The notes under the pieces were generated by a model. It did no database searches. It had not been told where the DNA came from and saw nothing but the letters and a program-made list of their open reading frames with translations. Source: a virus. Taken from it: 24,356 nt of DNA. Below are positions 10,297 to 24,356 of the stretch, piece by piece. Positions within the stretch are counted from its first letter, which is position 1; each line of letters begins with the position of its first letter. The stretch lies in IMG/VR virus record IMGVR_UViG_3300048107_000498, positions 1-24,356 of that record; one strand, 5' to 3'. The translations under genes and the position numbers were made by a program.

Positions 10297-10488
10297 ATGA
10301 CGGTAACAACTAACGAGCATGGACAAACAAACGTCTTTGCTAAAGAACCCACAATGGAGGTAATTAAAGTGACCGAAGACCACAACACAAAAGCAGAACG
10401 TTTAAACGGTAGGTTCGCAATGCTTGGAATCATTGCTGCTATCGGTGCGTATGCGACCACAGGTCAATTGATTCCTGGCTTGTGGTAG
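10297..10488 (+). CDS. hli: High-light-inducible protein (Hli), auxiliary photosynthesis gene
   Basis: 63 residues. The N-terminal TNVFAKEPTM (11-20) is conserved in cyanobacterial and cyanophage Hlis, supporting the ATG at 10297. The single membrane helix follows AERLNGRFAMLG (33-44). E34, N37 and R39 form the ExxNxR chlorophyll-binding signature of the LHC superfamily, and the protein ends TTGQLIPGLW. Hlis protect photosystems from excess light in the thylakoid and are carried by many cyanophages to keep photosynthesis running during infection. A GGAGGT followed by an in-frame GTG inside the gene (codon 25) could start a shorter form, but that would lose the conserved N-terminal motif. Confidence 0.96.
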   Translation: MTVTTNEHGQTNVFAKEPTMEVIKVTEDHNTKAERLNGRFAMLGIIAAIGAYATTGQLIPGLW

Positions 10489-10667
10489 GTGCACACTACA
10501 CTCCTCCGCCATTGCCTGCAAAGCTGTGTGCGGAGGTTGCTTGGGAGATAATCCATACTCCTGTCCTTAAGACAGAAGATAAAAGAAAAGTTTTAAATAA
10601 TCTTCGTCGTCGATGTGGACAAAACTTTTTGCACCCAGGAATTGTAGCTCCTACTGGGTGGCCTTAA
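10482..10667 (+). CDS. Small hypothetical protein downstream of hli
   Basis: 61 residues from a GTG that overlaps the hli stop by seven bases. It is basic and helical in character (CAEVAWEIIHTPVL, RKVLNNLRRRCGQNF) with a Pro-rich start and end. No family recognised. Support is mainly positional: it fills the 175 bases between hli and the convergent gene, and its TAA overlaps that gene's stop by four bases, the same compact arrangement as dcd/9210. There is no clear ribosome site, so the start is uncertain. Confidence 0.55.
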   Translation: MVGAHYTPPPLPAKLCAEVAWEIIHTPVLKTEDKRKVLNNLRRRCGQNFLHPGIVAPTGWP

Positions 10668-10981
10668 TCGCGTTGACGCCAATCATCAGTTTTTTCTTGA
10701 CTAAACCAATTTGCAATATCATCTGGACCATTGAACTTAGTCCGATGATTGCTTGGGTCTGGATCACCTAGATCCATTGCATTCATAAAGCTGTCAAGAC
10801 TACCTTCTTCCATTTCTGGTTTATTTGCTTTTCGCCTTGCTTTGCGCATCATCTCACCTGCTGAACGATTAGCTTTTCCTAGCTTCTCAGCCCAGATCAT
10901 ATCGGTGAGTTTTACCTCTTCTTGATTTGCAATGCGCTTGCAAATGTACTCTAGGCGTAGCCTGTATTCAGTTGATAGCAT
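10664..10981 (-). CDS. Small charged hypothetical protein
   Basis: 105 residues, starting MLSTEYRLRLEYICKRIANQ. The first 60 residues look helical with a basic patch (MMRKARRKANKP), and the C-terminal half is acidic and polar. No recognised motif. It follows the NblA-like gene by six bases in the same direction, so it is probably read from the same message as that gene, and possibly as the endolysin upstream. A nucleic-acid-binding role is possible from the charge pattern but is only a guess. Confidence 0.72.
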   Translation of the reverse strand: MLSTEYRLRLEYICKRIANQEEVKLTDMIWAEKLGKANRSAGEMMRKARRKANKPEMEEGSLDSFMNAMDLGDPDPSNHRTKFNGPDDIANWFSQEKTDDWRQRD

Positions 10982-10987
10982 GACAAT

Positions 10988-11284
10988 TTAACCAAAAATT
11001 GGCTGTTCATCATCCTCTTCGTCGTCCATCTCTTGACTCATCATGCTGATAGCAAGCTGAGTAAGCTCTAGATCTGTGGGGATATCAAATTCAATTTCAA
11101 CGTCTTCAGCCTGGAGCATGTCCTTAATTGCTTGCAGCTCAAGCATTCGTTGGTGGTACAGATTCAAAAGAGCAATCTGCAGCTGGTCCCATGTCATCTC
11201 TTGCGCTGCCAACTCGGCTTTACGCATAGAAAGCTGTAAGTGTAAAGGCAGATCCATTTCTTTCAACGATGTGAAATCTTCCAT
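10988..11284 (-). CDS. NblA-like phycobilisome degradation adaptor (putative)
   Basis: 98 residues. Residues of about 12-59 align without gaps to the short helical NblA family as I recall it: LPLHLQLSM, then Q28-x-M30-T31-x-D33-Q34-x-Q36-x-x-L39-x-x-L42-Y43-x-Q45-x-M47, then KDML. NblA proteins (about 60 residues) pair phycobilisome subunits with Clp protease and trigger phycobilisome breakdown. Freshwater Microcystis phages carry nblA, and I recall a report of an active NblA from an uncultured marine cyanophage. Unlike canonical NblA, this protein has a C-terminal extension of about 40 residues ending in a strongly acidic run. A TAGAAT at 11306-11311 could be a -10. It lies between the endolysin and an unknown gene. 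The match is by eye, so confidence in function is moderate; that the ORF is a gene is more certain. Confidence 0.62.
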   Translation of the reverse strand: MEDFTSLKEMDLPLHLQLSMRKAELAAQEMTWDQLQIALLNLYHQRMLELQAIKDMLQAEDVEIEFDIPTDLELTQLAISMMSQEMDDEEDDEQPIFG

Positions 11285-11308: not shown

Positions 11309-11971
11309 CTAACTCCAAGAACTAAAGATGTCTCTTAGCTCTTCGTCTTCCATTTCATCTATTGTATCTGTCACGCAAAAGGCATTTGCGAACTCACTTA
11401 AAACGTAAGGGCTGACTGCGCTTTCTAATTCCCGAATAGCACGTACCTGGTGAGGTGCTGCAGAATAATTTCTAAAAGCCTTTAGTAGAATCATGTCTGA
11501 AGGCCATGGGTTCATCTCTATATCTTGCAGAAATAGCCTGACTTCTTGTCTGCGTCTATCCAGTAAACCTCCTATCACCTGGTGGTTTTTATCAAAGACC
11601 CATTGGTTGATGGATTCAGTTACTGCCTTGTAATCGTTGCTGTCTAATTGGTCAATAATTTCACTGTACAAAAAAGCTTCCCATCCAATGGAATGGATAA
11701 AAGAAATCAATGCTTCCAGGCTGGATGGGTATAGACCCATGTTTAAAGCTTTGAGTTCATGCGCAATGATATTGATGTCTTTGAGAACATACTCAAGAGC
11801 TTTCTTCTTGGTACACATATGTCCTTGCTTAACAGCAGTACCATCAGGGTAGAACTGTGTTCCATGGCCAATCGTGTAGGGTTCTCCTCCAGACCCAGGG
11901 TCTGGGTATGCTTTTTCATTAAAGCCCTCAAAGGTTTTAATGATGTTCAACGCAGTCTTATAGGGGTACAT
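11309..11971 (-). CDS. Endolysin, GH24 phage-type lysozyme
   Basis: 220 residues. The N-terminus KTFEGFNEKAYPDPGSGGEP followed by YTIGHGT is the GH24 active-site region. E15, D24 and T33 correspond to the E11-D20-T26 triad of T4 lysozyme, with the same nine-residue E-to-D gap. Later features fit the helical lobe (LISFIHSIGWEAF, VIGGLLDRRRQEVRLF). It cleaves the glycan strands of host peptidoglycan at lysis. The C-terminal 60 residues, with a charged end (DEMEDEELRDIF), go beyond the usual T4-type domain and have no recognised role. There is no signal peptide, so release would depend on a holin, which I cannot identify here. A TATAGT lies upstream at 11997-12002. Confidence 0.9.
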   Translation of the reverse strand: MYPYKTALNIIKTFEGFNEKAYPDPGSGGEPYTIGHGTQFYPDGTAVKQGHMCTKKKALEYVLKDINIIAHELKALNMGLYPSSLEALISFIHSIGWEAFLYSEIIDQLDSNDYKAVTESINQWVFDKNHQVIGGLLDRRRQEVRLFLQDIEMNPWPSDMILLKAFRNYSAAPHQVRAIRELESAVSPYVLSEFANAFCVTDTIDEMEDEELRDIFSSWS

Positions 11972-19332: not shown

Positions 19333-20151
19333 CTACTTATTGATTAAGTTTAGATAGGTTGCTGGATCTAAATATCCAGGTGTCTCCTCTTTAGTCGTTT
19401 CTCCTGGCATAAATTGCTTTAAATTCATGCCTGTGTACTGCTGGACAATACTCATCGGGTCGTACGAGGTTGAACTTTTTTTATTCTGGTCCAGAAGCGC
19501 TTGACCCATAAGTTGCTTTTTGATCGCATCCATAAAGTTCGCTTTATCTTTGCCTTCCGTGACATTGATAGTAGTGTTGTAAGTATTACCACCGGAAGTA
19601 GTAGATCCACCAGCTGAGCTGGGGTCAATGCCGATAACGTTTCCGTCTTCGTCGAATTGGTAGGAGAGTTGGGGGAAGCCTGGACCGCCTTGCCCTACAC
19701 CGTAGCTAGTTAGATCTCCTAGCTTTTTCTGTGCTGCAGTGTAATCAGCACCACCGGGTTGGAATCTTCGCAAAGAGTTGTTTACTGAACTACCAAACGA
19801 ATCTTGTGTATTCATGTTGGCATTTGGATTGCCACCAAGAATTGTGTTGTATAAAAGAGCTACTCCCATTCCTCGCTCATACCCTCGACCACCAAGCCAT
19901 TTTTGAACATGTGGCATTTGCTCTGCCAGGCTGTAGTTGCCAATCTTATTAGGATCTAAGCCAGCTTCTTTGCGTTCCGGACCACCAAATTGAATAGCAC
20001 CATAGTAATTGCCGCCTTTACCACCCCAGATATTAGGGTTCATGCCTGACTCACGCTGAAGAACGGCTCCTAGTTCAATAGGGGTAACTCCTAACTGTTG
20101 TGCCGTTCTGACAATGGCTGCTTTATCGTTATCAGTGATTTGGTAATCCAT
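19333..20151 (-). CDS. Virion-associated lytic transglycosylase-like protein
   Basis: 272 residues. The first 100 residues look like an SLT/goose-type lysozyme domain: GVTPIELGAVLQRESGMNPN (21-40) places a catalytic Glu34 followed by Ser, NYYGAIQFGG (48-57) is the GxxQF-type motif, and YERGMGVALLYNTILGG follows the usual helix. The remaining 170 residues are a Gly/Ser/Asn-rich linker and a C-terminal tail. Such proteins cut peptidoglycan locally during DNA entry. It overlaps the upstream gene by one base (TAATG), so it belongs to the structural transcript. Activity is predicted, not certain. Confidence 0.82.
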   Translation of the reverse strand: MDYQITDNDKAAIVRTAQQLGVTPIELGAVLQRESGMNPNIWGGKGGNYYGAIQFGGPERKEAGLDPNKIGNYSLAEQMPHVQKWLGGRGYERGMGVALLYNTILGGNPNANMNTQDSFGSSVNNSLRRFQPGGADYTAAQKKLGDLTSYGVGQGGPGFPQLSYQFDEDGNVIGIDPSSAGGSTTSGGNTYNTTINVTEGKDKANFMDAIKKQLMGQALLDQNKKSSTSYDPMSIVQQYTGMNLKQFMPGETTKEETPGYLDPATYLNLINK

Positions 20152-23313: not shown

Positions 23314-24356
23314 TCAGACTACGCCGTCATCGGAGAGGTAGCTGAATGCAGTAGTGATGAAGTCTTTGTTCAAGACCTCGAAACCAGCATAGAGCTGCCA
23401 AATCAGGATGATAAAGCGAGAGAAGTCATCATTGTTGTTAATGAGTACTTGTGCGTTAGGACCGCCAATACCAACACCAACAGACTGAGGACCGAAGAAG
23501 TAACCTTGTGCAACTTCTTCAGAAGCGTAGTTAGCACCCGCATCAAATGAGGTGGTTACACTCTTATTTGGGAAGTTGGTTGACTCAAAGAACTTAACGC
23601 CTTCAAACTGAACGCCAGTAGGCATCACAGGTTCACCAGCCAGGAAGTAGCCCTGACCAGCTTGTGGTCCCATGTAGAAACTGGAGTTGTTAGGCATCAT
23701 GGGGTTAGCCATGTACATGCCTTGTCCAGGATTGCCTGCGTAGCGAGCGATCTCACGGAAATCTTCGTCACGACGCAAGTGCATCATGAAGGTAGGATCG
23801 CAAATACAGCGATACAGACCATCAGCAAATGTAGGTACGTTGCGCTTACGAAGATCTTTTACAACTTCGAGAAGGTCGGTACGAACAGAGAACTGTTGTA
23901 CTTGTGCGGTGTACTCAGCAGCTGTATAAGAAATACGGCCAGTACCATCTTTACCTTTACCACCAGCGAAGTAATAACCGCCTTGGCTTGAAGAAGCTGC
24001 ACCTTGTGCTTCTGCTTTTGCAAGTTCGTCAATGAAGACGCGGTCACGCCAACGACGATAGTCATCAAGCAGCGTCAAGCTACCGATTGACTGGTGGAAC
24101 ATGTTCAAGTTGCCAGTGTCGAGCAGCAAACGCTGCGCGGTGACCAGGGTCTCACGAGCAATCTTAAAGGTTGAAGGCTGGGTAGGATCACCTGGGTCCG
24201 CAGGGCCGGTGTATTCCTTAAGCACCACGAGGACTTTCTCCTTCGTGATGTTACGGCTATTAGCTGTACCAATAGTCTGGTCAGCAATACGCTCGCGTGA
24301 ATCCTTAGTACCAGGAGTTCCCCAGAACTTATAGCGATCCAGCTGCACGGTCTGGC
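23314..24356 (-). CDS. Major capsid protein, N4-gp56/P22-coat type, 5' end outside window
   Basis: At least 347 codons. A GTG at 24348 is in frame, but the frame stays open to the window edge (QTVQLDRYKFW), and QTVQLDR looks like the interior of such proteins, so I treat the true start as outside. Recognisable pieces are ITKEKVLVVLKEYTGP, QSIGSLTLLDDYRRWRDRV, VPTFADGLYRCICDPTFMM, DEDFREIARYAGNPGQG and GVKFFESTNFP, which match the N4-gp56 family of HK97-fold coat proteins. It forms the icosahedral shell. The family is typical of non-T4-like phages, which informs the lineage. A conserved-looking end (WQLYAGFEVLNKDFITTAFS) closes the protein. Confidence 0.88.
   Translation of the reverse strand, partial: QTVQLDRYKFWGTPGTKDSRERIADQTIGTANSRNITKEKVLVVLKEYTGPADPGDPTQPSTFKIARETLVTAQRLLLDTGNLNMFHQSIGSLTLLDDYRRWRDRVFIDELAKAEAQGAASSSQGGYYFAGGKGKDGTGRISYTAAEYTAQVQQFSVRTDLLEVVKDLRKRNVPTFADGLYRCICDPTFMMHLRRDEDFREIARYAGNPGQGMYMANPMMPNNSSFYMGPQAGQGYFLAGEPVMPTGVQFEGVKFFESTNFPNKSVTTSFDAGANYASEEVAQGYFFGPQSVGVGIGGPNAQVLINNNDDFSRFIILIWQLYAGFEVLNKDFITTAFSYLSDDGVV

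Follow-up and report, generated by a model that had tools for sequence, protein, structure and literature searches.

A divergent NblA-like protein with an acidic C-terminal extension encoded beside the lysozyme gene of S-EIV1-like cyanophages

The stretch of DNA analyzed here, referred to as the window, comprises positions 1 to 24,356 of the IMG/VR virus record IMGVR_UViG_3300048107_000498 (24,356 nucleotides). Near its middle lies an open ORF with an ATG start and 98 translated codons, whose product was the only one in the window to match the NblA family of Pfam (Table 1). The ORF is part of a same-strand block that runs from the capsid gene to the lysozyme gene, and due to this position it is expected that the NblA-like protein would be made together with the late genes. 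It should also be noted that a weak match to a phage tail lysozyme domain (PF18013, E 6e-4, below cut-off) was found within the structural block at positions 19336–20151 of the window.

Table 1. Features of the NblA-like locus, with coordinates in the window.
Feature	Coordinates	Strand	Basis
C-terminally extended NblA-like protein, 98 aa	10988..11284	(-)	ORF and translation
Core very likely homologous to NblA, residues 10-60	11105..11257	(-)	Ungapped hhalign alignment, AlphaFold2 helices, dN/dS
C-terminal extension, residues 61-98	10991..11104	(-)	EFDIPTDLEL motif, a third predicted helix (71-91), PIFG at the end of an acidic tail
Phage lysozyme (endolysin), immediately upstream and codirectional	11309..11971	(-)	PF00959, E 2e-20
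phrog_507 protein, cyanophage-specific, directly downstream	10664..10981	(-)	phrog_507, E 3e-51
High-light-inducible protein (Hli), convergent	10297..10488	(+)	phrog_178, E 4e-28
Major head protein, upstream end of the same-strand late block	23314..24348	(-)	phrog_1357, E 2e-14

Comparison of 145 loci revealed a common gene order consisting of a large ORF, a phrog_7595 gene, the lysozyme gene and the NblA-like gene, followed by a block on the opposite strand with DUF3310. The lysozyme gene adjoined the NblA-like gene in every locus that includes the upstream stretch (140 of 140). The cyanophage origin put forward in the preliminary description was borne out by synteny with Synechococcus phage S-EIV1 (KJ410740), the sole matching isolate, whose host is a Synechococcus. 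The ortholog in this phage (AHV82245.1) occupies the same place after the lysozyme with 65% identity over residues 1–79; it is the sole annotated relative and is described only as a hypothetical protein. Membership of the S-EIV1 lineage was indicated by both the shared order around the lysozyme and a shared capsid. Among 15 capsid-bearing contigs, 11 carry the NblA-like gene, these being all of the long ones that reach the expected site, while the other four, as read from their coordinates, end before or about at that site. Relatives are encoded by at least 528 viral contigs, and the S-EIV1 lineage of cyanophages has the NblA-like gene as part of its core set. Two S-EIV1-like contigs (L083 and L084) were binned in metagenome-assembled genomes labelled Puniceicoccaceae and Euryarchaeota, which are probably binning errors.

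The other neighbors were less constant. The proximity of the NblA-like gene to an Hli gene had been pointed out earlier as a pairing of two light-harvesting manipulators, and in the window the Hli gene does end 500 bp away. This does not hold for the general neighborhood, with the Hli gene present in 24 of the 145 loci and the phrog_507 gene in 30. Both appear to be variable inserts at this junction and the pairing is thus regarded as incidental. The phrog_507 protein is found in 460 phage records, all of them named Synechococcus, Prochlorococcus, Cyanophage or Marine and mostly T4-like.

The relationship to NblA was investigated with the Pfam model PF04485, which has a gathering cut-off of 25 bits. 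The window protein scored 17–18.2 bits (E 0.0085) and thus fell under this cut-off, but three family members passed it (27.5, 26.1, and 25.2 bits), so that this check on the proposed NblA identity succeeded for these three relatives and not for the window protein itself. A search of NCBIfam gave no match. A match to phrog_31712 (E 0.0027) was shown by one of 17 members only and was taken as chance. When a profile of the family was compared with 177,635 distinct PDB sequences, a single match at E ≤ 10 was returned, namely Anabaena NblA (1ojh), with an E value of 7e-4 using a 17-member profile and 1e-3 using a 77-member profile. Conversely, when 10,258 ORFs were ranked with a profile of 11 canonical NblA sequences, family members came first (best E 4e-6) and the first unrelated ORF scored 8.4 bits. 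A tblastn search of phages with Anabaena NblA gave no match.

Alignment of the family with NblA by hhalign gave a score of 29.9 (P 2.8e-5) over 50 ungapped columns with 26% identity. One hundred column shuffles gave a mean of 11.3 (sd 2.4, maximum 21.9) and the reversed family 11.6, which indicates a similarity beyond chance. The ungapped alignment described at the outset was recovered by three methods: residues 10–57 with phmmer against 1ojh, 9–59 with the family profile, and 11–60 with hhalign. A likeness to NblA that arose in a short amphipathic helical hairpin by chance or convergence, with no shared ancestor, is nevertheless conceivable for a 50-residue helical segment of this identity whose representative in the window is sub-threshold in Pfam and which lacks a Foldseek fold match. 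This is considered improbable, as the alignment runs ungapped across both helices and the turn, independent tests all return NblA as the sole database match, and the hhalign score is well over that of the best shuffle and the reversed control. The agreement of phmmer, the profile search of PDB, hhalign with its shuffles, and the three members over the Pfam cut-off supports the relatedness, and as judged from these comparisons the family very likely shares common ancestry with NblA, even though the score of the window protein lies under the curated threshold.

The NblA-type motifs named in the preliminary description are present in the window protein as LHLQLSMR, EMTWDQ, LYHQRM, and DML. Models built by AlphaFold2 with either 17 or 77 relatives contained helices at residues 14–29, 32–59, and 71–91/93, with a core pLDDT of approximately 74–81 and a pTM of 0.38–0.39. 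The model is compatible with an NblA hairpin that has one further helix and then a disordered tail after it. A structure prediction had been suggested as a check on the helical hairpin; the two-helix arrangement was obtained at moderate confidence, but a Foldseek match to NblA was not. Searches of PDB and BFVD with the model gave nothing usable, and no NblA structure was returned from PDB. Foldseek performs poorly with short helical hairpins as queries, and this negative result says little about a helical model of such length. The core has a dN/dS of approximately 0.02–0.08 (median 0.02), which places the NblA-like gene under strong purifying selection. The tail has a dN/dS of approximately 0.7, representing weak purifying selection, this being a rough figure owing to the loose alignment of the tail.

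In relation to the NblA of cyanobacteria (PF04485; 1ojh, 2q8v, and 3cs5), the ungapped 50-residue match extends over the entire hairpin, with positions L7/L9, Q/E12, R16, M25, S/T26, D/E28–Q29, L34, Y38, and Q40 matched or conservatively kept. However, the family possesses H/E-L in place of the N-terminal E10–Q11 and has lost K53 and W56, which lie toward the C-terminal end of the domain. All 11 canonical sequences have E10–Q11, whereas the 77 family members have His (54), Glu (22) or Gln (1) at the first of these positions and Leu (72), Met (4) or His (1) at the second, with Gln in none. At K53, the canonical sequences have Lys in eight cases and Arg in two of 11, whereas Gln or Ala prevails in the family; W56 is absent from the family, with mostly Asn, Gly or Asp in its place. 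The family also has invariant residues of its own, with W32, R46, E49, and E60 standing out against cyanobacterial NblA, and with P13, R21, A23, E24, T31, L40, L42, E60, P69, E73, and L77 specific to the family across its 77 members. In NblA, ClpC binding has been located near the N-terminus and phycobiliprotein binding near the C-terminus (PMC4103541). Given these sites, the changes at E10, Q11, K53, and W56 suggest that both contacts may differ in the family, and the changed positions may be the ClpC and phycobiliprotein contacts themselves.

The family also differs from the roughly 60-residue cyanobacterial NblA by approximately 38 additional C-terminal residues, its members being 93–105 aa in length (median 98). 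The acidic C-terminal extension noted earlier is real and conserved across the 77 members: P69, E73, and L77 are invariant in it and D71, L74, A78, P95, and F96 nearly so. Residues 61–98 of the window protein carry a net charge of −14, its tail being DDEEDDEQPIFG, and Asp and Glu make up 33–67% of the last 18 residues across the family. The extension alone had no match in Pfam.

The acidic tail of the window protein (10991–11044) resembles the tip of bacterial single-stranded DNA-binding protein (SSB), DDDIPF, as do the tails of the family. Mimicry of this tip, by which the protein would act on DNA-repair or replication partners of the host, would fit the ends of the family, which are exactly PF in 37 of 77 members and of a Pro-Phe type after an acidic stretch in 75. 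Such ends were found in no ORF outside the family among approximately 2,370, with the two matches of the filter both being family members. Against this, about half of the members, the window protein included, end in PIFG, PFFG or similar, by which the terminal Phe would be hidden, and the gene also lies outside any replication module. Such mimicry is therefore regarded as very improbable.

An NblA domain is likewise carried by the freshwater Microcystis phage Ma-LMM01 and Planktothrix phage PaV-LD, but these proteins are of normal length and, unlike the window protein, score well above the PF04485 cut-off (46.8–52.4 bits). NblA-like genes of marine cyanopodoviruses and cyanomyoviruses are attributed to Nadel et al. 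(2019), as cited in PMC9602691. The marine cyanophage proteins, such as S-SCSM1 ORF237, are also divergent and recognized through remote homology; ORF237 is 54 aa in length, carries no such extension, and gave no match to the NblA model of Pfam. A search with the family profile found no family member in Ma-LMM01, S-SCSM1, S-TIM5, Syn5, P-SSP7, PaV-LD or P60. Assignment of the gene to the lysozyme-adjacent cyanopodoviruses was rejected, the small ORFs after the tail fiber/lysozyme in P60 and Syn5 not being NblA-like. A canonical NblA-like ORF (84 aa, 30.6 bits) was detected directly upstream of a T7-like terminase in a 125,842-base S-EIV1-like contig, IMGVR_UViG_3300042503_000838 (L157, 4801–6787). 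The terminase was found in none of the 13 other S-EIV1-like records, so this contig is probably a chimera of two cyanophages and was excluded as evidence for a second, canonical NblA in the lineage.

Expression of phage NblA in cyanobacteria leads to loss of phycobilin (PMC9602691). Together with the Synechococcus host of the lineage, this favors docking on phycobilisomes, and we hold at a little better than an even chance that the protein descends from NblA in divergent form, is retained as a core gene by the S-EIV1 lineage, is made late and acts on the phycobilisomes of the host. Residues 10–60 would form the NblA helical hairpin. In an infected Synechococcus-type cell, this hairpin would dock on phycobiliproteins and either loosen them or deliver them for Clp proteolysis, presumably to the benefit of the phage. 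The acidic, Pro-Phe-ended extension, rather than the usual NblA motifs, may make or tune the second contact. Dismantling of the host antenna, as the preliminary description had proposed, was not established, given the sub-threshold PF04485 score of the window protein, the loss of Q11, K53, and W56, and the absence of NblA among the Foldseek results. The invariant placement beside the lysozyme, unlike that of patchy auxiliary genes, also counts against action on phycobilisomes.

The main rival to action on phycobilisomes, from which computation cannot separate it, is that an NblA-derived or NblA-fold hairpin was repurposed for lysis timing, assembly or packaging. This would be consistent with the position directly after the lysozyme in the late block at every locus having that stretch, the presence of the gene in 11 of 11 long capsid-bearing contigs reaching the site, the low dN/dS of the core, and the changed functional residues of NblA alongside invariants such as P13, R21, and P69. 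We nevertheless consider it a possible but less likely explanation, as the NblA likeness is still strong enough to give the sole PDB match, the one host known so far is a Synechococcus, and families for lysis, tail, and packaging give only chance-level single matches. It is also conceivable, though rather unlikely, that NblA was turned into a fixed and probably essential late protein and re-aimed, with the acidic Pro-Phe tail as its second contact instead of the ClpC site. Such a protein would be an adaptor or blocker that decides, at lysis, what becomes of the host antenna or of a different target in the host. An S-EIV1-like prophage reported in S. elongatus UTEX 3055 (PMC9239245) offers a laboratory route to the function of the NblA-like protein.

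In cyanophages, NblA genes have been known as auxiliary genes of scattered occurrence, and marine and divergent forms are among those already known. In an ocean survey, the S-EIV1 group represented 3.3% of the cyanophage signal, and nblA was recorded in other phages while only hli and ptoX were recorded for the S-EIV1 genus-level group (PMC5332604). No prior report of the extended S-EIV1-type family was found, with earlier mention possible in Nadel et al. (2019) or in the description of the S-EIV1 genome (Chenard 2015). The NblA-like protein described here is a fixed core gene product of a widespread lineage and apparently unannotated. If it does act on phycobilisomes, takedown of the antenna would be a standard part of infection by the S-EIV1 lineage; if not, it would represent an example of a host adaptor recast as a phage core protein.
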